Shown here in pieces: positions 14,279 through 28,815 of a stretch of DNA of 44,068 nt. The notes beneath the pieces were generated by a model. That model searched no databases. It was not told where the DNA came from and worked only from the letters and a program-made list of their open reading frames with translations. Source of the DNA: Leifsonia sp. C5G2 (GTDB lineage Bacteria; Actinomycetota; Actinomycetes; Actinomycetales; Microbacteriaceae); the NCBI RefSeq assembly GCF_013359685.1, contig NZ_JABFMV010000020.1, positions 1 through 44,068 on the forward strand, written 5' to 3'. The first letter of the stretch is position 1. Every line of letters starts with the position of its first letter. A program made the position numbers and the translations under genes.

Positions 14279-15976
14279 CTATCGTTCCGGGCCGCGCTCT
14301 GCGCCCGGCCCCGTCCTCTGTCGTGGCTTCGTCGGCTCGATCTTGTTCGGCACCGGCGACGTCGCCGCCGTCGCCGGCTGAGCCTGCCCGGCCCGCAGCC
14401 GATCCAGCATCGCCTGCGTCTCCGAGTCCAGCGTCGCGGCCGGCGCGGCCGTCGTCGACGACGCCTCCGCGCTGACCGCCGGCAGCGCGTCACGAACGCG
14501 CGTCAGACGTCCCCGCACGTCCTCAGCCAACAGTCGAGCCTGCCGGGCCTGCTCGGCCGCCTGGGCGGCCTCGTAGACCGCCTGCGTAAGGCGGAGGAGC
14601 TGCCGGATCATCGCGGCCTGTGCCACCGTGCCCTGACCGCCACGTGCGGCGCTGGCCAGCAGCATCGCCGCCCCGGAGATAGCGGTCGTGCCCGCGCGAT
14701 GCGGCCGCACCGTGCGGGTGTACGTCTGCGCCGATCGTGACAGGGCCTCCGACGCCGCGGCGAGGTCGCCGGGCGTCTCCTCGGTCGCGTTGGACCAGGC
14801 CGCGAATGCGCCGGCTGTCTGTCGCGCGACCGTGGCCCACGTGTCCCTGTCGTCGACGGGAACCGACCGCAGCCGGTCTACGAGCTGCCGCAGCTCGTCG
14901 TTGCGCCGGCCCCACAGCTCGGGGTCCGGTTCCCGCGTCTCAGCTCCCGGTGCGACCACGCGGCGGCCGCGCTTGGCGGCGTTCCACTCGGCGGCCGCAT
15001 CGCTCGCTCCAGTCGGGGTATCCGGCCACCCGTCGCGCAGCCGGGGCAGCGTGAGATCGCGCCCAAGGTGACCCCCGCCGTACCAGATCGGACGCTCGCC
15101 GGCCGCGGGTCGCTCGGCCACCGAGTAGCCCGTGATGACGTCGGTACGTCCATCCGCGTAGCGGGGACGAACAAGCAAGCCCGTGCGTCGCATGCGGCGC
15201 ACGAACTCGGCTTCGTCGGTAGCCGCGGTCGCGCACCCGCGCACCTTCAACGCCAGCAAATAGCGGGGCTGATCGGTGCGCACCTCGGCGCTGATCCGCG
15301 CCTGCCGATCCGGCCCGGTCAGGTGTTCCCACCGCGGCGCGTCCTCGCCCAACTGCGGACGGGTGCGCTCGTACTTCGCACGTGCCCGCGACCGCGCCTG
15401 AGCTTCCCGCTCGGCCGGGTCGTAGCCGCGCGTCGACCGCTCGGCGCGCACCGATTCCAGCTGCTCCAATCCGTACTTCACTTCAAGCGCTCGGGTCGCC
15501 ACCTGGGCGCGGTGGAAGTCGTTGTGGATGGATGCCTTCGTGCCGTCCTCTCGGACCAGGTTCACGGCGATGTGGATGTGGTCGTTCCCGTTCGACGAGA
15601 CACCGTGCCGGACGGCGACCCACCGGCACGGGGCCTTCGCTCCTTCGTTGTCGTCGAACTCCATCGCCGTGATGAAGTCGTTCGCGATCGCGCCCCACTG
15701 CTCATCCGTGAGCTGTCCTTCGTCGGCGCGCAGCGAGAGCGAGCAATGCCACACGTGACCGCTGGGAACCTCGACACCGAATGCAGTTCGCGGCTTATCC
15801 AGGTGGCGCGCGATCGACAATGCCGCATCGCGTCCAAGCTCCGCGTCATCGTGCCACGCCATGAGCGCCGGATCACCCGCGACCAGATGCGGCTCAGTGT
15901 GCTCGTTCGACCGGCCCGGACCGGTGAGGTAGGTCATCAGTCCCGACATGCGATCGCCGCGGACAACGTTCGGCAT
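14279..15976 (-). CDS. Relaxase, VirD2/MobA-type mobilization nuclease
   Basis: 565 residues, ATG at 15976 overlapping the MobC stop (TGATG); GTG one codon upstream is an alternative. The N-terminal domain carries the relaxase histidine cluster: HVWHCSLSL at 74-82 and NGNDHIHIAVN with His133 and His135. Tyrosine candidates for the nicking residue lie near the N-terminus (Tyr16). The middle part contains a conserved segment (TGYSVAERPAAGERPIWYGG) and the C-terminal 250 residues are Ala/Arg/Gln-rich and helical. It should nick the oriT upstream of the operon and lead the strand into the coupling protein. Part of this coding sequence (15100-15134) is duplicated in inverted orientation at 42345-42379. 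Confidence 0.88.
   Translation of the reverse strand: MPNVVRGDRMSGLMTYLTGPGRSNEHTEPHLVAGDPALMAWHDDAELGRDAALSIARHLDKPRTAFGVEVPSGHVWHCSLSLRADEGQLTDEQWGAIANDFITAMEFDDNEGAKAPCRWVAVRHGVSSNGNDHIHIAVNLVREDGTKASIHNDFHRAQVATRALEVKYGLEQLESVRAERSTRGYDPAEREAQARSRARAKYERTRPQLGEDAPRWEHLTGPDRQARISAEVRTDQPRYLLALKVRGCATAATDEAEFVRRMRRTGLLVRPRYADGRTDVITGYSVAERPAAGERPIWYGGGHLGRDLTLPRLRDGWPDTPTGASDAAAEWNAAKRGRRVVAPGAETREPDPELWGRRNDELRQLVDRLRSVPVDDRDTWATVARQTAGAFAAWSNATEETPGDLAAASEALSRSAQTYTRTVRPHRAGTTAISGAAMLLASAARGGQGTVAQAAMIRQLLRLTQAVYEAAQAAEQARQARLLAEDVRGRLTRVRDALPAVSAEASSTTAAPAATLDSETQAMLDRLRAGQAQPATAATSPVPNKIEPTKPRQRTGPGAERGPER
15100..15134. repeat. 35-bp repeat inside the relaxase gene (donor copy)
   Basis: These 35 bases recur exactly, inverted, at 42345-42379. 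In the relaxase they encode the conserved TGYSVAERPAA segment, so this is probably the original. The repeat contains a 27-bp interrupted dyad at 15106-15132: CGGG-3-CTCGG-3-CCGAG-3-CCCG. Confidence 0.85.
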
Positions 15977-16395
15977 CACGACGCTGCACCGCTCAGCTCG
16001 TCGACGAATGCGTCGATCCGGTCGGCCACCTCGCGCACCTTGCGCAGCGTCGCCACCATCTCGGCCTGCACGTCACCGGTCGCGTTTGTCGCCTTCGCCA
16101 TCTGGTTCACGTTGTTCGCGATCGTCGCCAGCAGCCGGTGCGTGGAGAACATCTGAGCGATGACCTCGTGCCGCACCGACGCATTGGACGCGGCCGCCGC
16201 AGCCCCTCCCGCCAGAGCGGAGTCCACCAGCAACTTGGGCACGCTCACCTTGTACTGCAACGCGAGCGCAAGAAGCTGCCCCTCCTCCTCGGGAGTGACA
16301 CGCACAACATGCCGATGCCGGCGACCACCCTCGACGCGACGACGACGCGCCTGCCGACGGGGCTCCTGCTCCCCCGCCGTGTCAGAAACAGCCAT
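15976..16395 (-). CDS. mobC: MobC-like relaxosome accessory protein
   Basis: 139 residues from ATG at 16395, with the purine-rich site GAGGGGGTGG upstream. The basic N-terminus (RRQARRRRVEGGRRHRHVVR) leads into a ribbon-helix-helix-like region (VRVTPEEEGQLLALALQY). The MobC hallmark is clear at about 92-106: IANNVNQMAKATNATG. MobC proteins bind oriT and help the relaxase melt the nic region. It is the first gene of the leftward mobilization operon and borders the inverted-repeat cluster at 16427-16511. The longer frame upstream of 16395 runs into that cluster and is not coding. Confidence 0.85.
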   Translation of the reverse strand: MAVSDTAGEQEPRRQARRRRVEGGRRHRHVVRVTPEEEGQLLALALQYKVSVPKLLVDSALAGGAAAAASNASVRHEVIAQMFSTHRLLATIANNVNQMAKATNATGDVQAEMVATLRKVREVADRIDAFVDELSGAAS

Positions 16396-20292: not shown

Positions 20293-20649
20293 ATGAAAAA
20301 GCGTTCAATTATCGGGGTTGCGGGAGCTGCTGCCCTTGTCGCTGCTTCGGTCATCGGATTCAGCGCGCCGGCGCAGGCCTCGATCACGCAGTGCGGGAGC
20401 AACCGCGCGTGCGCGTGGACGGATTCAAGCTACGCGGGGGCATTCGGGTCTTGGACGAGTTCGCAGTCCTCCTTGCCCGGATTCCACGACAACATCTCTT
20501 CCGTGGCGAACAACCGGACAGCGTACATCGGATGGTTCAGCGACCCTGGCTACTCGGGCGCCTTGTTCCAGCAGGCTGGCGGAGCTGCAGGTTTCTTCAA
20601 CTGGCCCGACACGCGCAACGACTCGTTCGACTCCCTCTACTTCTACTGA
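20293..20649 (+). CDS. Secreted peptidase-inhibitor-like protein (family I36)
   Basis: 118 residues. Sec signal peptide: MKKR, hydrophobic core, cleavage AQA-S after residue 29. The mature part of about 89 residues has ACAWTDSSYAGAFGSW, HDNISSVANN and FSDPGYSGALFQQAGG, the pattern of the I36 (SMI-type, crystallin-like) inhibitor family from actinobacteria. Cysteines 34 and 40 may pair. It is the first gene of an operon with a lipoprotein, a membrane adaptor and a MacB-type ABC transporter, which is unusual for a Sec-exported inhibitor and suggests a bacteriocin-like or defensive role with dedicated immunity (inference). Confidence 0.75.
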   Translation: MKKRSIIGVAGAAALVAASVIGFSAPAQASITQCGSNRACAWTDSSYAGAFGSWTSSQSSLPGFHDNISSVANNRTAYIGWFSDPGYSGALFQQAGGAAGFFNWPDTRNDSFDSLYFY

Positions 20650-21485
20650 TGGCGGGTGGGCGGCTGACAGCGACAACGTCAGCAGCGGCGCTCATCACTG
20701 TCGTTGTGTTGACCGGGTGCTCGTCCGGGCCGTCGCAGGCGCATGCTAACGTGCGTGGACAGCTCGATCCGGCAACGGCGCAGATTGTGTTGCCACTTGA
20801 GTCCTACGCGATGAGCTGGGGTGAAGTGCAGACCGTAAATCATGCAAATGCGATTGCCATCGAAAAGTGCATGGCTAAGAAGGGGCTCACCTTTCCTCGC
20901 GCCTCTCAGGACTGGTCGGCGCTCACGCCTCTACCGGATCGTCGGTATGGGCTGTGGGCGCCGGCCGACGCTGAAGCCAACGGGTATGAGTTGCCCGAGT
21001 CGAGTCAATCGAAGGACGTTCAGGCCCAGGAGGATGCACTTGGTCCGGATTGGTGGCAGGACTATCAGGGGTGCTTCAAGTCGACCAAGCAGTTGCCGGT
21101 GATGGGGGTCAACACATCGCCAGATCAATCGGTGGTGGACCGTGGAATGAACGAGTCTTTTGAGGCCCTGCTTGCCAGCGACGAGTTCAAGTCGACCCGG
21201 GAGAAATGGCTCAGCTGCATCCAGAACGGCGGCCTTGCCGCCAACAAGGATGCCAGGGTGCTCGTGCCTCAATTTCCTTCTGCGGGAGAGGAGCAGTTGA
21301 AGGTTGCAGCCATCGATGTGCAATGCAAAGAATCGCTGAACTCCGTCCAGACGCTGGCGGACTGGGAGGCGACCAGGCAAGCAGAGTACATCGATGGTCA
21401 CGAGGGCGACCTGACGGCCTACCGCGACAAGGTCAAGAAGGTGGTCGCCCAAGCGCAGAAGCTGGTCACGACCGTTGGCGGGTGA
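20649..21485 (+). CDS. Lipoprotein co-transcribed with the I36-like protein
   Basis: 278 residues, ATG at 20649 overlapping the previous stop (TGATG). Signal peptide with lipobox LTGC, lipidated Cys24. The mature domain contains paired cysteines (for example IEKCMAKKGLTFP, YQGCFKSTKQ, LSCIQNGGLA, VQCKESLN), a pattern of small actinobacterial surface lipoproteins. No named domain. The operon context (secreted small protein before it, adaptor and ABC exporter after it) suggests immunity or delivery of the secreted protein. Upstream extension of the frame overlaps the inhibitor gene and is rejected. Confidence 0.65.
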   Translation: MAGGRLTATTSAAALITVVVLTGCSSGPSQAHANVRGQLDPATAQIVLPLESYAMSWGEVQTVNHANAIAIEKCMAKKGLTFPRASQDWSALTPLPDRRYGLWAPADAEANGYELPESSQSKDVQAQEDALGPDWWQDYQGCFKSTKQLPVMGVNTSPDQSVVDRGMNESFEALLASDEFKSTREKWLSCIQNGGLAANKDARVLVPQFPSAGEEQLKVAAIDVQCKESLNSVQTLADWEATRQAEYIDGHEGDLTAYRDKVKKVVAQAQKLVTTVGG

Positions 21486-22572
21486 GCCGCGGCGGTTGCG
21501 CCGATTGGACCATCCATTCCGCGCTCTCGCCTTCGTTGCGGTCACGGTTCTAATCGCGGGCGCAGCCTTCCTGCTGGGCATGTGGGTGCGGTCGCCGGAC
21601 TCGGCTGTCCTCGACGCTCGCGGTACAACTGTGCCCGTGTATGCGTCGGTTGAATCCAGAACCGTCACGGCAGACATTCGCATCCAGGGTGAGGTATCCG
21701 GGACGCAGCAACAGCCAGTGAGCGTTAATCCGCCAGCGGGGGCAGAGCGCATTGTCGTCACGTCCGTTTCAGCCAATCCGGGCCAGCTCACGAACGGCCA
21801 GCTTCTGGGCACCGTGTCGAACAGGCCAGTGTTCCTCTTCAGCGTGGATATCCCGCTGTTCCGAAACCTAGTAGCTGGAGATACAGGCAGTGACGTCGCC
21901 AGCCTGCAGAAAGCGCTTGGCGTCCCGCAAACAGGAAAGGTCGACAGTGCCACCCTAAGCGCCGTGCGCTTCGCTTACTCGGCCGCAAGTATTGAGCCAC
22001 CCGGCGGTCGATACTCCACGACCATCACCACCGCAGAGTTTTACACCGTTCCCACTTCCCTCGGTGCGCTCTCCTTGATCTCAATCGCTCCGGCCGGCTC
22101 CTCTGTAGACAGCGATCACCCCTTCGCTGTACTGGGAACAGGATCCCCATACGTCAGTGTCCGAGCCAGCGTGAGCGAGGCCGAACAGATCAAGCAGAAC
22201 GACAAAGTCAGCATCACCGGCTCTGGCGGGAAGAAGGGCACCGGCACGGTGGCCAAAATCAGCGAATTCCAGTCGAGCCCCACCAGCGGAGGACGACCAC
22301 CCGGCCGCGACATCCAAATCAACCTCGATGCTGGCGGAAACCTGAAGGCCGGTGATGCCGTCGCAGTCCTCTTCGGTACCGAGTCAAAACCCGATATGGC
22401 AGTACCCACGATCGCAATCCGGTCGGACTCGGGAGGCGACTACGTGATCAAGCGCAGCCAATCCACCACCCCTGCGCGCACACCAGTCGTCGTGCAAAGA
22501 AATGCAGACGGCTGGACGGCGATAAAGGCGGAGGGTCTCGCGGTAGGGGACCAGGTGCTGGTGTCCCAATGA
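21475..22572 (+). CDS. HlyD-like membrane adaptor with peptidoglycan-binding domain
   Basis: 365 residues if started at the TTG at 21475, which overlaps the previous gene by 11 nt; TTG at 21496 is an alternative and no good ribosome-binding site decides. One transmembrane helix (about 17-37) is followed by a beta-rich adaptor region and a PG_binding_1 segment (LVAGDTGSDVASLQKALGV) at about 125-160. The C-terminal part has barrel-like HlyD/MacA motifs (KNDKVSITG-type and LAVGDQVLVSQ). It would connect the ABC transporter downstream to the cell wall. The start overlap with the ABC gene (ATGA) confirms a single operon. Confidence 0.75.
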   Translation: MAGEPRRLRRLDHPFRALAFVAVTVLIAGAAFLLGMWVRSPDSAVLDARGTTVPVYASVESRTVTADIRIQGEVSGTQQQPVSVNPPAGAERIVVTSVSANPGQLTNGQLLGTVSNRPVFLFSVDIPLFRNLVAGDTGSDVASLQKALGVPQTGKVDSATLSAVRFAYSAASIEPPGGRYSTTITTAEFYTVPTSLGALSLISIAPAGSSVDSDHPFAVLGTGSPYVSVRASVSEAEQIKQNDKVSITGSGGKKGTGTVAKISEFQSSPTSGGRPPGRDIQINLDAGGNLKAGDAVAVLFGTESKPDMAVPTIAIRSDSGGDYVIKRSQSTTPARTPVVVQRNADGWTAIKAEGLAVGDQVLVSQ

Positions 22573-24503
22573 CCGTTTCACCACCACGGCTCACACTCAA
22601 CCGTATCCAGCGCCGCTATGGAGAGTCACAGCAGTGGTTCGCTATCCGAGAGGCGTCGCTGATCGTCGAACCTGGCGAATTCCTCGCCATCGTAGGGCGC
22701 TCCGGGTCAGGAAAATCGACCTTTCTCAACATCATCGGCTTGCTCGATTCACAGTGGGAGGGAAGCTACAAGCTCGGTGATATTGACGTTCGCAGTCTGA
22801 GCGCAACGCAGATCGACCGCCTGCGCAGCGCAACATACGGATTCATCTTCCAGTCTTCCTATGCAAACCCCTACGAAAGCACCGAACGAAACGCAACCCT
22901 GGCCCTAGCTATCCAAGGAGCACCGCTCCGCGAGCAATCAGAAAAGGTCTCGCAGGCACTGGAAGTTGTGGGGCTGGAGAGAAAGGCCGCTGCGCTCGCC
23001 CGCTCACTATCCGGTGGAGAACGTCAAAGACTCGCAATCGCGCGAGCCCTCACCACGAATCCCTCAATCATCGTGGCCGACGAGCCCACAGGAAACCTCG
23101 ACACTGAAACGGGCGACCAAGTGATGCAGGCCCTCCTCGAGCTCAATCGACAGGGGGCAACGGTCATCCTGGTCACCCATGACGCGCGGATTGCAGCTTA
23201 TGCCCACCGGACGGTTCGGATGGCCGACGGCATCCTTGAGACCACAGGGGCTGGCGCTTCTGTCGGTTCGACGACTGATGCTCAGGGGCCGCTCCCTCTA
23301 CGGCCAATTCTTTCAAAGAAGTTGCGTCGTGGCACACGGTTGCGACGAGCATCGGATCGACTCACTCGAGCGATCAATAACGTGACGTCTCGACCGTTGC
23401 GCTCGGTCGCGCTCATCGCCGCCTTCGCTTTGGCGTTCGCGGGACTCATAGGGGCGGCAGGCATCGGCGCGACCGCATCACAGCAGATCGCAGGGCGGCT
23501 CACCGCCGCAGCTCGAGACGAAGTCCGAGTGAACGTACCTGGCGGTACAGCGGACGATCAGGCGGCTCTCTGGCTGGACCGACTAGATTCGCTCCCACAT
23601 GTTCGAGAGGTCGGGCAAGTAGCGCCCCTGGATGCCAATACCGCGCGGACAAGTCGGTTCGCGTTCACATCGGCCAGCGGCAACTCACCGTTCCAGGGGA
23701 GCACCGTGGCTGTCGATAGAGGGCTCTTTGGCGTGCTGGATATTAGAACGTCTCCCCAGAGCGCAAGCAGACTGTTCTCCTCCACCACCAAACACATCGC
23801 GCTCGTTGGCGCGGAAGCGCGTTCACAGCTCGGCCTGTCGGACAGCGATGGTGTTGGAGCGGAGGTGTGGGTCAACGGCGAGCCGTACGCAGTGGTAGGC
23901 ACCATCACGTCCGCACCACGGGAGCCCAACCTACTGACGAGTGTTGTCGTGCCTCTAACGCAGTTTTCGACCGGTTCTCGACAAGTCGTGGTCCGAACCG
24001 ATCCCGGCTTTGCCGGCCCCTTGGCAAGCGCGATACCCCTCGCGCTCTCTCCGGCATCGCCTGCAGATATCTCAGTCGAGACCGCTGCCGAGCTGCGGAA
24101 CTTGCGAGTGGGAGTGCAAACCGACCTGAACGGATTACTTGCCTCATTGGCGATCGCCCTTCTCGCCCTTGCCATACTCAGCGGCGCCTCAGCGATGTTC
24201 ATCTCCGTTCAAGCGCGCACCCAAGAGCTTGCGCTCGCTCGGGCGGTTGGACTGGGAAAGGGCGGCGTAGCGACAATCTTCCTCTGGGAAGGCGTAGTCA
24301 TCGGCCTTGCGGGAGCGCTAGCGGGAATCGCAGGTGGACTAGCGATTTCCGTCGCAGTCGCCGCTCTACGCGGATGGACGGCAATCGCGCCATGGGAAAC
24401 GATCGCCATCGCACCAATAGCCGGAGCCCTCTGTGGTGCCCTCGCGGCCTTGCTCCCCGCCGCACGCGCCGCACACATCGACCCTGCCGACGCCATCCGA
24501 TAA
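22569..24503 (+). CDS. MacB-type ABC transporter, fused ATPase and FtsX-like permease
   Basis: 644 residues. ATPase domain: Walker A GRSGSGKST (43-51), signature LSGGERQR (147-154), Walker B IIVADEP (167-173) and H-loop LVTHD. The permease follows: a first transmembrane helix near 285-305, an extracellular MacB-like domain (about 310-510), then three helices (about 520-640) ending in PAARAAHIDPADAIR, the FtsX/MacB end. MacB-type machines act as mechanotransmitters for peptides, lipoproteins or drugs. With the adaptor and lipoprotein it probably handles or confers immunity to the secreted protein of this operon. Confidence 0.88.
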   Translation: MTVSPPRLTLNRIQRRYGESQQWFAIREASLIVEPGEFLAIVGRSGSGKSTFLNIIGLLDSQWEGSYKLGDIDVRSLSATQIDRLRSATYGFIFQSSYANPYESTERNATLALAIQGAPLREQSEKVSQALEVVGLERKAAALARSLSGGERQRLAIARALTTNPSIIVADEPTGNLDTETGDQVMQALLELNRQGATVILVTHDARIAAYAHRTVRMADGILETTGAGASVGSTTDAQGPLPLRPILSKKLRRGTRLRRASDRLTRAINNVTSRPLRSVALIAAFALAFAGLIGAAGIGATASQQIAGRLTAAARDEVRVNVPGGTADDQAALWLDRLDSLPHVREVGQVAPLDANTARTSRFAFTSASGNSPFQGSTVAVDRGLFGVLDIRTSPQSASRLFSSTTKHIALVGAEARSQLGLSDSDGVGAEVWVNGEPYAVVGTITSAPREPNLLTSVVVPLTQFSTGSRQVVVRTDPGFAGPLASAIPLALSPASPADISVETAAELRNLRVGVQTDLNGLLASLAIALLALAILSGASAMFISVQARTQELALARAVGLGKGGVATIFLWEGVVIGLAGALAGIAGGLAISVAVAALRGWTAIAPWETIAIAPIAGALCGALAALLPAARAAHIDPADAIR

Positions 24504-24539
24504 GCCTCTGTGAGGCATCCCCCGTGGCTGCTCACGGGG
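24504..24539 (+). terminator. Two hairpins after the ABC transporter gene
   Basis: GCCTC-TGT-GAGGC (24504-24516) begins directly after the stop codon and CCCCGTG-6 nt-CACGGGG (24520-24539) follows. There is no T-run, so it may only attenuate transcription into the next gene. Confidence 0.45.
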
Positions 24540-24552
24540 CTACCCTCGATGC

Positions 24553-24984
24553 ATGAGCGCGAAAGTTCTCACATCTGAGCTCAGCGAGCCTCGTACTGAA
24601 CACGGTTCGCGCGGGAATCTGCTGCTGATTATCGGCGCCGCCAGTGCAATTTTCGGAACGGTCACCTTTCTCATACAGGCCGACCATGCCGGCATTGCCG
24701 AGGTCCGCGCTTCTCAATTCGACCCTGCCGCGGCCTCAGCCGTCGCAGACGCGAGACTTTGGATGTGTGGGGGGATCCTATTAGCTGCCGTGGGGCTCTG
24801 CCTGGCGGGTGGGTCTCTCGCTACCCGGGTGCTCCGGGGGCGCAAGCACAGGTCAACACGTCACGGCGCGAGCCCGATGCCACCGCGATTCGCGCGCCAC
24901 CTCCGCAAGCTGGCATCTCTCCACGCCGAAGGGATTCTCACCGATGCAGAGTACGAGCAGGGCAAGCGAAAACTGCTCGAATAG
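24553..24984 (+). CDS. Two-helix membrane protein with C-terminal SHOCT domain
   Basis: 143 residues, ATG at 24553. A TACCCT box lies 6 nt upstream and no ribosome-binding site is seen, so it may have its own leaderless transcript. Hydrophobic helices at about 22-42 and 72-94 flank an external segment (HAGIAEVRASQFDPAAA). The last 30 residues form a SHOCT module (LRKLASLHAEGILTDAEYEQ), a short oligomerisation element common in actinobacterial membrane proteins. A function cannot be assigned; it is convergent with the RiPP-like operon. Confidence 0.7.
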   Translation: MSAKVLTSELSEPRTEHGSRGNLLLIIGAASAIFGTVTFLIQADHAGIAEVRASQFDPAAASAVADARLWMCGGILLAAVGLCLAGGSLATRVLRGRKHRSTRHGASPMPPRFARHLRKLASLHAEGILTDAEYEQGKRKLLE

Positions 24985-25188: not shown

Positions 25189-25794
25189 TCAACCGGCGGG
25201 TTGTGCCCAAGGGAGGAGGGGCTGGGAGGCCTTCCATCGACGAGTCAAACTGAGCCAGTCTGGTTCGACGAGAAGGGAGCGGGCGGCGACGTTCCGAGTT
25301 TCGTCGAGGAGAACAAAGTATGGGTTGGAGCTGCCCGGGTTGTAATCCAGCAGGAACGTAGAGTCTGGAATCGGGATCAAGACCGGAAGGTCCACGCTCA
25401 CTTTGTCCTCCCTGGCGATCGTCGACAGCCATTCGCGCGTTGTCCGAGTATCTTCATTGCTCACCAGAACAATGTCTGTGTGGCTGCCGGAGGAAGCGAG
25501 CGAACTCAGCCTGCCTAGTTCTGGTAGTTCGCTTCGACACGCACCACAAGAGGGCGAGACGAAAACTAGTGCGGTGGCGCGCTGAAGATCTTCGAGCGCT
25601 ATCTCGGTTCCGCCTATGGTCCGGGCGCGGAACGGTGGAGCGGGGCGTCCGACGGGCAGCTGTGTGTCCGCTGAGCGGCGCCGCCGCAAGTCGATTTGAC
25701 GATGTAAGTAGACCGATACGCGTAGCAACATGAAGAGGTTCAAGCCCAGGAGGACGAGTACAGCGAGAAGGGTGATCAAGTAGACATCGCTCAT
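25189..25794 (-). CDS. TlpA/MauD-like membrane thioredoxin of the RiPP-like cluster
   Basis: 201 residues, ATG at 25794. N-terminal transmembrane helix (about 5-28), basic stretch, then an extracytoplasmic thioredoxin-fold domain with redox motif SPSCGAC (Cys83, Cys86) and the PAPPF-type start of AhpC/TlpA proteins at 51-55. MauD-type proteins of this design work with MauE-like membrane proteins in making disulfides of a Cys-rich substrate. Here the gene follows a MauE-like gene by 31 nt, in an operon headed by a six-cysteine precursor, which makes the same task likely. It is the last clear gene of the operon. Confidence 0.8.
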   Translation of the reverse strand: MSDVYLITLLAVLVLLGLNLFMLLRVSVYLHRQIDLRRRRSADTQLPVGRPAPPFRARTIGGTEIALEDLQRATALVFVSPSCGACRSELPELGRLSSLASSGSHTDIVLVSNEDTRTTREWLSTIAREDKVSVDLPVLIPIPDSTFLLDYNPGSSNPYFVLLDETRNVAARSLLVEPDWLSLTRRWKASQPLLPWAQPAG

Positions 25795-25825
25795 TTCGTG
25801 CCCTTTTTCCGATCTAAGTGGCCAG

Positions 25826-26353
25826 TCAGATGCCGCGCACTATGACACGGCCGACGTCGCGGAGGTTGATGATTAGGACCGTGGAGACGGCTGCGAGCCC
25901 TCCTCCTAGTAGTAGGTATTCCAAAGTCATCGAGAGCTGCCATTGGAGTGCGTCCCCGAGAGGGAGGCCCGTCACGCATAGGCCGATGAGCAAGACGTTT
26001 CGAGAGACGTCCCATGGAGAGACGGCCCGATCGCTGGGACCGAAACAGTTGCAGATCACAGCCTGTCGCCGGATCAAGACCGTGCTAATCGCCGCTGTGT
26101 ATACCAACAGAGAGCAAATGGCCAATATGAACCCGCCGACAGCGGCCGCGCCGCCAGCCATAAGCAGCAAGACGACCAGCACTTCGCTAGATAGCACCGC
26201 GACGGCTAGCGGGGTGACCGCGGCAGGTCTCACGAGGGAGAAAGAGCGTATAGCTGCCTTGAAACTCCGGAATGCTGTGGCCTTGCTTAAAGCTGACACC
26301 GCGAAAAGCATCATTGTGGTTAGGGCTACGTAGTCGTACAAGAAATCAGTCAA
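25826..26353 (-). CDS. MauE/DoxX-like redox membrane protein
   Basis: 175 residues from TTG at 26353, which has GGGAG 7 nt upstream; a GTG at 26383 overlapping the previous stop is an alternative. Four hydrophobic helices (about 8-26, 47-75, 78-95, 115-150) fit the MauE/DoxX family. The characteristic ICNCFG segment with Cys101 and Cys103 lies after the third helix. MauE-type proteins pass electrons between the membrane and a partner thioredoxin. The partner gene lies immediately downstream. The frame runs far upstream through the protease gene but that part is a shadow. Confidence 0.75.
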   Translation of the reverse strand: MTDFLYDYVALTTMMLFAVSALSKATAFRSFKAAIRSFSLVRPAAVTPLAVAVLSSEVLVVLLLMAGGAAAVGGFILAICSLLVYTAAISTVLIRRQAVICNCFGPSDRAVSPWDVSRNVLLIGLCVTGLPLGDALQWQLSMTLEYLLLGGGLAAVSTVLIINLRDVGRVIVRGI

Positions 26354-26379
26354 TTGTTCGCTCCCACCGGTCGTTAGAA

Positions 26380-27339
26380 TCACAGATCGCAGTCGGGAAC
26401 GATGTCCCACTTGATGAAGCCCTCCGGCGTACCGTCCGGGCCGGGCACAAGATGTTGCCGCCTCACCGCAGTGAAGTGCGGCGCAAGAATGACTCCGGTG
26501 GGCTGGCTGGTGAAAGCGAGCATGCCGGGTGCCTCCGCGAACGCTGCTCGTGCTGACTGCCAGGCCGCCCAGACCTCGCTCTCCTCTTCGCTTGTGAGGC
26601 GAGCAACGTTGAGCCCGATGGCTGCTGCCTCGTCCCAAGTGATTGGGTACTCGTGCGCATCGCGGGAGCAAAGGAATTCCACGATTCGTCGGCGCTTCCT
26701 CATTGGTCCAGGGACCTGATAAGCGAGGAAATCGAGGGCAGTCGATCGGACGAAGTTGCTCGCCCGATGGGCTGCACCGATGGATGGCAGGAACACCTGC
26801 TTCGAGAGGCGTTCGACTGCGCGAGCGTTGAATCGATACCCGCGGAGTCCAAACCAACTCTGCAAGGCCGGCTGAATCGCTTCGATATCGGCGGCGCTGA
26901 GTAGTCCACTGTCGCTCCCGTTGCTGCCCGATAGGTGTGCGTCTATCGGACCGATTTCGGACATCGACCCCATACCGATGCAGCGCGCGCCTAAACAGAT
27001 CAGGCTCGCGGCTGACGCGGCCCGGAATGGTATGACTACGTCGTAGCTGTCGAAGTACTCGCGTAGAAGATGGACGATCTTGCGCGCGACAGCCACCGAG
27101 CCACCCTTGCTCGAAAGGACGACGTAGATCTCCTTGCCCCCGCCGTGACGGCGGAGCGCTTCGTAGACATGGCGCTCGAGGTCTTCGTCGAGGAAGCCAT
27201 CGATGTACATCACAGGGGCTTTCCACTTGCCACCGAGTGATCGAAGGAGCTGGTGTGTGCGAGAAAGCACTGCTCGCTCGTGAGGTGCCGGATCGGGCTC
27301 ATGCGTGGCCTCGAGTGCCTTGCTAGCGTGGGTGCCCAT
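26380..27339 (-). CDS. ClpP/SppA-fold serine protease (SDH-like) in the RiPP-like cluster
   Basis: 319 residues from ATG at 27339, 7 nt after the maturase stop; a TTG at 27369 overlapping the maturase is an alternative. Segments IYVVLSSKGGSVAVARKIV (oxyanion/strand region, about 71-89), RAASAASLICLGA with putative nucleophile Ser109, and GSMSEIGPIDAHL (about 124-136) match the serine dehydrogenase proteinase (SDH) clan of ClpP-fold enzymes. No signal peptide or membrane helix. Position right after the ATP-grasp gene suggests it removes the leader peptide or processes the precursor. ClpP-fold proteases are uncommon in such clusters, so this is an unusual partner. Confidence 0.75.
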   Translation of the reverse strand: MGTHASKALEATHEPDPAPHERAVLSRTHQLLRSLGGKWKAPVMYIDGFLDEDLERHVYEALRRHGGGKEIYVVLSSKGGSVAVARKIVHLLREYFDSYDVVIPFRAASAASLICLGARCIGMGSMSEIGPIDAHLSGSNGSDSGLLSAADIEAIQPALQSWFGLRGYRFNARAVERLSKQVFLPSIGAAHRASNFVRSTALDFLAYQVPGPMRKRRRIVEFLCSRDAHEYPITWDEAAAIGLNVARLTSEEESEVWAAWQSARAAFAEAPGMLAFTSQPTGVILAPHFTAVRRQHLVPGPDGTPEGFIKWDIVPDCDL

Positions 27340-27346
27340 GGCGCGA

Positions 27347-28375
27347 CTAACCGTTCGCCCCGCGGGCAAGGCAGGATGCTAGGGCGCTTGTCATTCGAAG
27401 CTCCGGGACGAGCTTCTCAACCCAGATGAAGTTGCCATTCGGGTTGTTCTCCAAGAACACGTAGCGACCGTCCGGGGTCTTGACGATGTCCATCGTGCTG
27501 AAGTTGAGGCCGTAACTTCTCACGAAATTGATGCAGCGTTCTTGAACGTCGTCCGGCAACGTGCCGCGGGAATATCTAATCTCTAGGCCGCCGTTGGCCC
27601 AGTCTCGCCAATCCACGCTCGTTGACTCGCGGTCCTGCGAGTGAATTTCACCCACGAAGATGTCGTCTCCGATGACCGTCACCCGCAACTCCACGTCTTT
27701 TTCGATGTACTCCTGGAACAAGCCGGGTGAAAGACGGACCCCGTCGATCGCTTCGAGCTCCGCTTCTCCGATGAGGGTGGTCAGTGTGTGTCTTTGGTCG
27801 ACGGCGGCTTCCGGATGCTTCTCGCTGGTGGCTGTCAATCCAAGGCCCGGCTCCGAGAGGACCTTGTAGACCATCCGTCCGGGACACGCTGCGTAGAAGG
27901 CTCGGACAACGTCTGGATCCGACGTGATCGTGGTCGCAGGAGTCTCCAGCCCAAATCGCGCCGCACGGTCCAGTTGCTCAATCTTCAGGCTTGCCCGCCT
28001 GTTGTCCTCTGGGCGGTTCATCCAGTACGAGTCGAGGAGGGCCCACGTACCGGCGAAGGCCTGATCGAGTTCCGCCTTGACGAACTCCCGCTGTTGCTCG
28101 GGCCATCCATCCGGAATGCCGTAGTAGTTCCGCGGCCGCCTCCACCAGACAGACGTTATGTTCGACAAGCTGCGGAGAAGCGTCTGATCGGAATGCAACG
28201 AAGCGTCCCAGGACGATCGCCCGCCGCCGAGTGAGACGGTGATCGAGCCGTCCAAAGGCAAGGCGTCAGCGTTCACCTCCCGAACCTCCACGTGCATGTC
28301 ACGCAGTTCGTGCACGACGTCGTGGGTGTGCGGGTCGCCGGTCGAGCTGACGACGACTACGACTGGACTCGACAT
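27347..28375 (-). CDS. ATP-grasp peptide maturase (MvdC/MvdD-like)
   Basis: 342 residues, ATG at 28375 with a GGGGGA site upstream. The fold elements of ATP-grasp RiPP maturases are in order: an N-terminal pre-grasp domain, VWWRRPRNYY (about 97-106), YWMNRPEDNRRASLKIEQL (about 136-154), the phosphate-binding MVYKVLSEPG region, LFQEYIEKDVELRVTVIG (about 240-257) and the Mg-binding end FLENNPNG (Glu309, Asn311). These enzymes link side chains of Ser/Thr/Lys to Asp/Glu in microviridin-like graspetides. The Cys-rich precursor gene lies directly upstream on the same strand, separated by a hairpin. Confidence 0.88.
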   Translation of the reverse strand: MSSPVVVVVSSTGDPHTHDVVHELRDMHVEVREVNADALPLDGSITVSLGGGRSSWDASLHSDQTLLRSLSNITSVWWRRPRNYYGIPDGWPEQQREFVKAELDQAFAGTWALLDSYWMNRPEDNRRASLKIEQLDRAARFGLETPATTITSDPDVVRAFYAACPGRMVYKVLSEPGLGLTATSEKHPEAAVDQRHTLTTLIGEAELEAIDGVRLSPGLFQEYIEKDVELRVTVIGDDIFVGEIHSQDRESTSVDWRDWANGGLEIRYSRGTLPDDVQERCINFVRSYGLNFSTMDIVKTPDGRYVFLENNPNGNFIWVEKLVPELRMTSALASCLARGANG

Positions 28376-28426
28376 AGATGATCTATCCCCCTTGATAGCC
28401 AGAAATCTGAGCGAAACAGTAGAGGC

Positions 28427-28462
28427 TAGTGCGGGCGGAGTCTTCAGGCTCCGCCCGCACTA
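28427..28462 (-). terminator. Hairpin between precursor and maturase genes, likely attenuator
   Basis: A perfect 14-bp stem, TAGTGCGGGCGGAG with CTCCGCCCGCACTA, 8-nt loop. It lies 24 nt after the precursor stop and before the maturase start. No T-run follows, so partial termination or 3'-end protection of the precursor mRNA is likely, giving more peptide than enzyme. Confidence 0.7.
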
Positions 28463-28485
28463 TCCCCGACTGGTTCTGTCGAGAG

Positions 28486-28734
28486 TTAGTAGTAGTCGCA
28501 CCGGTAGAGGCCGCCACCCAGTGAGCTACACCCGCTCTGCACGCAGGTCATCGAGCTACCCGCGTAGTAGGCGTCGCAGTACCCACAGGTGCCGATGGCG
28601 TCGTGGGTGCAGTAGGCCTCGGTGGCCATCGCTGGACCAGCGGCTTTCCAGGGCTCCATAGCCTTGAGCGGCTTTGAGACCGCGAAGGCGAACGGCTCCA
28701 ATATGGTCCGCTCTTCGTTCAAGATAACCGTCAT
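28486..28734 (-). CDS. Cys-rich RiPP-like precursor peptide (82 residues)
   Basis: ATG at 28734 has the site GGAAGGA 9 nt upstream; earlier in-frame codons lie on or before the promoter. The leader (1-38) includes EPFAFAVSKPLKAMEPW, like the PFxxxxxxPL element that ATP-grasp maturases of actinobacteria recognise. The core (about 39-82) has six cysteines at 42, 50, 53, 64, 69 and 79, with Thr/Ser donors (43, 49, 60, 61, 63, 67, 70, 71) and acidic acceptors (Asp45, Asp54, Asp80, Glu39), and ends CDYY. So both side-chain ester/amide links and disulfides are possible. The gene heads the operon and no close known graspetide core is recalled. Confidence 0.8.
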   Translation of the reverse strand: MTVILNEERTILEPFAFAVSKPLKAMEPWKAAGPAMATEAYCTHDAIGTCGYCDAYYAGSSMTCVQSGCSSLGGGLYRCDYY

Positions 28735-28787
28735 TTTGATCATCCTTCCGTCATGCGCAGCTTCCTTACTGCGCCAGTAGACGGGAA

Positions 28788-28815
28788 GGTATACCCGGCA
28801 AATTCTCGACGTCAA
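28788..28815 (-). promoter_or_regulatory. Promoter of the RiPP-like operon
   Basis: TTGACG, 16-nt spacer, TATACC on the minus strand, the most consensus-like promoter in the cargo region. The expected transcript start leaves a leader of about 45 nt before the precursor ATG. Confidence 0.65.

Follow-up and report, generated by a model that had tools for sequence, protein, structure and literature searches.

Candidate graspetide sub-type with cysteine-bearing precursors and a thiol-redox pair on a putative plasmid of Leifsonia sp. C5G2

The graspetide families tgmA/tgmB (TIGR04186/TIGR04187) and microviridin MvdC/MvdD are among the described systems closest to a five-gene cluster that we analysed in a 44,068-nt stretch of DNA from Leifsonia sp. 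C5G2 (contig NZ_JABFMV010000020.1, the whole of which is called the window here). The cluster encodes a precursor peptide, an ATP-grasp synthetase, an SDH-type protease of the ClpP fold, a MauE-like membrane protein and a TlpA-like thioredoxin. It shares with these families the MvdD pre-ATP-grasp domain and a precursor gene beside the synthetase gene, and the leader of one relative of its precursor resembles TIGR04186 (E 0.0018). In contrast to them, the precursor cores hold two to six cysteines, whereas the C-terminal part of the seven precursors recognised in our control loci is cysteine-free. The SDH, MauE and TlpA genes are additional, the synthetase scores under the curated cut-offs, and the methyltransferase gene found 3' of tgmB in two control loci (L137 and L139) is absent from the five-gene run.

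The redox genes recall MauD/MauE of methylamine dehydrogenase, as a MauE protein of PF07291 is again combined with a membrane-anchored thioredoxin, although this thioredoxin stays under the MauD model and the pair accompanies a graspetide synthetase and a protease. As cited in the accessible part of PMC7794033, MauE has been speculated to take part in disulfide formation. The same text describes three MauE families found by decRiPPter, one of them also with MauD, with Cys-rich predicted precursors and a suggested role in precursor modification. Compared by description only, these families differ from the present clusters in their origin from Streptomyces and in precursors with at least eight cysteines, and that part of the paper names no SDH protease for them; it does not plainly state their ATP-grasp membership, and it reports the ATP-grasps of the decRiPPter candidates to be without direct similarity to microviridin-type enzymes. 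A serine proteinase is present in over half of graspetide group 9, its type being unstated in the main text of PMC13097080, where MauE, thioredoxin, TlpA, cysteine and disulfide do not occur. Because of this proteinase the present clusters may overlap with group 9. The accessible text of PMC8939145 ties precursor cysteines mainly to thioethers and lists ATP-grasp branches 7 and 8 with peptidases of several unrelated families and no predicted precursor; MauE, thioredoxin, ClpP and SDH do not occur in it. An initial annotation of the window had named no described graspetide family with this gene set. Within our searches of the open-licence literature, as opposed to subscription papers and supplements, this held, with the decRiPPter MauE families and the group 9 proteinase as partial hints to such a family.

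As proposed in that annotation, the five genes lie on one strand, the minus strand, in the order precursor, ATP-grasp, SDH, MauE, TlpA (25189-28734):

28486..28734, minus strand: precursor peptide, 82 residues (translation, Cys positions, third-position GC, alignment with relatives)
27347..28375, minus strand: MvdC/D-like ATP-grasp graspetide synthetase, 342 residues (PF21068, TIGR04187, profile against PDB)
26380..27369, minus strand: SDH-type ClpP-fold serine protease, at most 329 residues (PF01972, invariant columns, AlphaFold2/Foldseek)
25826..26383, minus strand: MauE-family membrane protein, 185 residues (PF07291, CxCFG motif)
25189..25794, minus strand: membrane-anchored TlpA/redoxin-like thioredoxin, 201 residues (PF08534, PF00578, CGAC active site)

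We propose, with a probability of about 0.6, that this is a plasmid-borne graspetide sub-type defined by cysteine-bearing precursors and by its own thiol-redox pair in the operon. The precursor starts with the ATG at 28734, nine bases downstream of GGAAGG, and stops at 28486; the initially assigned boundary of 28815 corresponds to a TTG farther upstream, with which a longer frame of 109 residues begins. All six cysteines lie within the C-terminal 41 residues, in the core as had been annotated. The leader contains FAFAVSKP and Trp29, the core starts with Cys42-Thr43 and the peptide ends with Cys-Asp-Tyr-Tyr. An AlphaFold2 model was too poor for use (predicted local distance difference test, pLDDT, 44; predicted template modelling score 0.19). 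Since four frames of 60-120 residues in the window, the precursor included, carry six cysteines in their last 45 residues, the cysteine count alone was rejected as evidence. What goes beyond chance is the third-position GC of 0.82 together with the conservation of the frame, as eight more precursors were found in six other genomes beside the same four neighbour genes.

These six genomes, all actinobacterial (G665, G507, G662, G859, G894 and G1417), bring the number with the full set to seven, in agreement with the view of a graspetide-type cluster of a ribosomally synthesized and post-translationally modified peptide with dedicated thiol-redox proteins. The gene order is the same in six of the seven, with one or two precursor genes in front, while in G1417 the precursor gene follows TlpA. 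All nine precursors have a common leader region, a Trp upstream of the core and a first cysteine followed by Thr, and none has a cysteine before this Cys-Thr. The number of cysteines is even in every case: six in the window and in G1417, six in each of the tandem precursors of G507 (locus L042), four in G859 and in G894, two in G665 and two in each of the tandem precursors of G662 (L043). Thus a fixed six-cysteine scaffold was rejected, and the expectation that leader and cysteines would be conserved across clusters was largely borne out, the spacing of the cysteines differing between genomes. The leader had initially been written as PFxxxxxxPL, a pattern that is not conserved; instead a motif of roughly F-[AG]-[FLM]-x-[VIL]-A, followed by Trp, recurs, with LGFDLA in G662 and LLAFKLA in G1417. 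The Thr after the first cysteine and an Asp near the C-terminus are present in 9/9 precursors at variable distance from each other, and the six-cysteine precursors terminate with Cys-Asp and two further residues. TIGR04186 is matched weakly by two of the eight precursors scanned (the ninth, from L135, being outside the scan), the match of the L091 precursor across its leader reaching 18.3 bits at a cut-off of 25. Cysteine spacing is identical in the two L042 cores in spite of their different sequences.

For clusters located via SDH, the five-gene set looks all-or-none, because control ATP-grasp and SDH loci are devoid of the remaining genes. Profiles of MauE, TlpA and SDH gave no match at E 1e-5 in 21/21 other ATP-grasp loci (L010, with E 3e-4, was left out), nor did profiles of ATP-grasp, MauE and TlpA in 17/17 other SDH loci, the control flanks being about 1 to 10 kb and those of the genome-search loci ~1.5 kb. 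A recognisable precursor is present at seven of the 21 ATP-grasp controls (L002, L003, L005, L011, L137, L138 and L139), none with a cysteine in its C-terminal part; one or two cysteines occur farther upstream in the frames of L002, L003, L005 and L139. A motif scan of 12 of the remaining 14 controls (all but L004 and L007) gave no precursor match. The Deinococcus locus L011 carries a related ATP-grasp gene and no SDH, MauE or TlpA; its precursor has the homologous leader LFAFHVGKPA..YDAEAQVW with the Trp kept, is cysteine-free, and at the aligned Cys-Thr position shows the Thr and no cysteine.

With the ATP-grasp protein as query, 9/396 genomes of the order matched at E 1e-20 and 4/99 relatives at 1e-3, self included in both cases, and both searches gave only distant synthetases; a keyword look-up of ATP-grasp in genome contigs gave six distant loci (two on short contigs), none with the gene set. 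ATP-grasp matches also came from 86 plasmid records, of which seven were examined. With SDH queries, which differed from search to search while the genome draws overlapped, 9/394 genomes of the class matched, four with the full set (the window, G665, G507 and G662) and five without it. In the order of G665 10/249 matched, three of them with the set (G665, G859 and G894), and the order of G507 gave 1/3, G507 itself. In the order of G662 the figure was 34/196, with the set in G662 alone among 30 genomes checked (7 of 37 places came without a locus, and the neighbours of G801, G1017, G721 and G762 were left out). For the phylum, 39/246 matched at 1e-15, with the set in the window alone among 30 places checked (loci for 30 of 43 places). 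The genus of G859 gave 3/54, all with the set (G859, G894 and G1417), and the genus of G665 1/2, G665 itself. With profiles from which they were excluded, the SDH proteins at first detection scored 6e-78 (G859), 1e-74 (G894) and 3e-81 (G1417); the best SDH outside the set reached 1e-39 with any cluster profile.

The synthetase matches PF21068 (31.6 bits, cut-off 27) and is 29-55% identical to its six relatives, and the alignment from six clusters holds numerous invariant columns. A profile of six cluster synthetases matches the PDB entries 5ig8 (E 5e-61), 5ig9, 7mgv (CdnC) and 7m4s (AMdnB). The first two are titled 'ATP grasp ligase', and we take them to be microviridin synthetases. A tree of 24 synthetases joins six cluster enzymes, all but that of G662, to Deinococcus at a support of 88/98, below the program's mark of 95/80; a single clade of all seven is unsupported by this tree.

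The SDH gene follows directly 3' of the ATP-grasp gene, with overlapping frames, in 7/7 clusters. In the window it starts with TTG (329 residues), an alternative ATG lying at 27339. The protein scores 36.4 bits with PF01972 (cut-off 31.3) and, with NF047768, 49 at a cut-off of 250. SDH-type proteases have a Ser-Asp-His triad, and S119, D143 and H239 are invariant in all seven clusters. The AlphaFold2 model (pLDDT 72.4) matches ClpP in Foldseek at E 1.4e-6, with a template modelling score of 0.41 by query and 0.64 by target. When the SDH proteins of three clusters were searched against plasmids, 2, 35 and 5 records matched, in no case over 80% of the query, and neighbouring genes were inspected in two; two E. 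coli plasmids of 43.7 kb each (NZ_CP081794 and NZ_CP081704) encode an SDH-like 'serine protease' with about 31-34% identity to two cluster SDHs. The MauE gene begins with a GTG overlapping the SDH stop, and its product scores 75.3 bits with PF07291 (cut-off 27); the CxCFG motif typical of MauE is kept in 7/7 clusters. The TlpA-like protein, whose CxxC is equally kept in 7/7, matches PF08534 (32.3 bits, cut-off 26.6) and PF00578. As it scores 24.5 bits with the MauD model TIGR02661 (cut-off 188.6), it was filed as TlpA/redoxin-like and not as MauD. No MauE relative was found among solved structures at E 1.

From these data a pathway of four steps can be proposed. The ATP-grasp enzyme would bind the leader and link a core Ser or Thr hydroxyl (or a Lys amine) to a core Asp or Glu, the best candidates being the invariant Thr after the first cysteine and the Asp near the C-terminus, Thr43 and Asp80 in the window precursor. 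The SDH protease would then probably cleave off the leader, a role suggested by the relatives' transporters, in which a Pfam scan found no peptidase domain. MauE and TlpA could enter thiol exchange with the peptide, making or correcting one to three disulfides in it, as the redox genes pair with an even number of cysteines. Finally an ATP-binding cassette (ABC) transporter would export the peptide, its gene being missing from the window or located elsewhere. Gene content, conservation, the co-occurrence of core cysteines with the redox genes and the conserved catalytic motifs support such a pathway, whose product may have both a macrocycle and disulfides. The cluster is real and conserved and is best read as a variant of graspetide biosynthesis, for which an ester-plus-disulfide product is plausible. 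The full version, with an ester ring and one to three disulfides made by MauE/TlpA at the cytoplasmic membrane face before export and with the leader removed by SDH, is unlikely to be correct in every part.

Several results weigh against the proposed sub-type. The synthetase reaches E 9e-62 with TIGR04187 and yet only 209 bits, under the curated cut-off of 350, and it also stays under the curated cut-offs of MvdC and MvdD. Only 4% of 200 bootstrap trees unite the seven synthetases in one clade, two label changes being required, and a long branch separates the G662 enzyme from the others. In a search with just the window sequence as query, the G662 SDH scores 6e-7, no nearer than an outside SDH at 8e-7. 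The clusters were located via SDH, so that its presence in 7/7 is partly selection, and clusters without SDH would be missed. Neither Pfam nor NCBIfam gave a match for the window precursor, and cysteine spacings and Thr-to-Asp distances vary widely among clusters, which is unusual for a single fixed ring. The positive-inside rule, here uncalibrated for want of a canonical MauD/MauE to compare with, puts the CxxC domain of TlpA (7/7) and the CxCFG loop of MauE (6/7) on the cytoplasmic side, the exception being the MauE of L135 with only three membrane segments in a crude scan. As possible controls, MauE gave no plasmid match, and the MauD cut-off was exceeded in neither our own nor the control genomes. 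The two motifs therefore fit poorly to simple extracellular disulfide formation, and their apparent cytoplasmic placement is the point hardest to reconcile with the proposed mechanism.

It is doubtful, but the most serious alternative, that SDH is no maturase at all and serves in self-protection, is the target of the peptide or acts as a non-cleaving partner of the synthetase. According to the accessible text of PMC13097080, self-resistance has been suggested as the role of proteins that accompany groups 7, 9 and 10, among them the group 9 serine proteinase, and a dependence of graspetide synthetases on partner proteins has been demonstrated. The overlapping position right after the ATP-grasp gene (7/7, in clusters found through SDH) and the Ser, Asp and His kept in every cluster argue for a maturation protease instead, and with peptidase-less transporters in the Pfam scan leader removal would otherwise be left without an enzyme. 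Decidedly unlikely is a reductive redox pair that keeps the cysteines free for metal binding or for a thioester made by the ATP-grasp enzyme. The cytoplasmic placement of both redox motifs by the charge pattern would suit it, and ester-making ATP-grasp enzymes can yield thioesters upon nucleophile substitution, as reported in the accessible part of PMC12291112. However, the even cysteine counts in all nine precursors speak against it, the L091/L092 core with one Asp and four cysteines would be left with an odd number after one thioester, and the cysteine-free Deinococcus relative keeps the Thr and not the cysteine. That there is no ATP-grasp ring and the product is a simple disulfide-bonded, bacteriocin-like peptide, as the greatly differing ring sizes and the unmatched window precursor might suggest, is highly improbable in view of the many invariant synthetase columns across six clusters, the strong similarity of the profile to graspetide-type synthetases of solved structure and a leader resembling those of graspetide precursors.

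An ABC transporter gene adjoins the proposed graspetide cluster in five of the six relatives: an MsbA-like one directly 3' of TlpA in L041 and L042 and directly upstream of the cluster in L043, and in L091 and L092 an ABC ATPase with a putative permease (no Pfam match) after TlpA. A scan for ABC ATPase motifs (Walker A and signature) gave no match over the 14 kb of L135 and, for the window, MacB alone; no ABC transporter of the window is co-directional with the cluster. Thus the operon lacks an obvious exporter, as had been noted. The MacB system, which had been pointed out as lying nearby, is present in this cassette:

20293-24984, plus strand: I36 peptidase-inhibitor-like protein, hypothetical protein, adaptor (peptidoglycan-binding and RND-type matches), MacB-type ABC protein, SHOCT protein

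The Leifsonia shinshuensis plasmid NZ_CP043643 has the same cassette (identities of 89% for MacB, 92% for the adaptor, 95% for I36 and 73% for SHOCT), and across its full 52.7 kb none of the five cluster genes has a tblastn match at E 1e-3. Because the same cassette sits on a plasmid without the cluster, it is probably unrelated to it, and MacB as the dedicated exporter was rejected as the simplest reading, though MacB may still act as a substitute exporter.

The window is one contig of a 4.09-Mb assembly in 35 contigs, and an exact 55-base overlap of its termini suggests that the 44,068 nt are a complete circular plasmid. A Leifsonia shinshuensis plasmid is 90.5% identical over 46% of the query 20000-44068, and the relaxase encoded at 14279-15979 has 78% identity to that of NZ_CP043643. 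The GC content is 59.9% in the cluster stretch and 67.0% in the remaining window. Among the relatives it is below that of the flanks in 4/6, with a clear difference in L041 and L043 and a slight one in L042 and L135; L091 and L092 lie slightly above their flanks. Only for the window and for L041 does separate acquisition appear likely. Other genes beside the clusters include, by eye, an oxygenase-like gene upstream of the G1417 ATP-grasp gene (L135, 4230-5084) and a P450-like gene downstream of the precursor (L135, 8749-9978), a large AAA/LuxR-type regulator by family scan (L091, 8213-11092) and a similar one by eye (L092, 2202-5072), and a ROK-family protein (L042, 9598-10845).

If the proposed reading is true, an oxidative cross-link would be added to graspetides as a second kind, and a small, testable gene set would be available for peptides held by esters and disulfides. 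The series of 0, 2, 4 and 6 cysteines among precursors with related leaders hints at how a macrocycle pathway may acquire a redox module, and both the SDH-type protease and the MauE/TlpA pair would gain a role outside their known settings.

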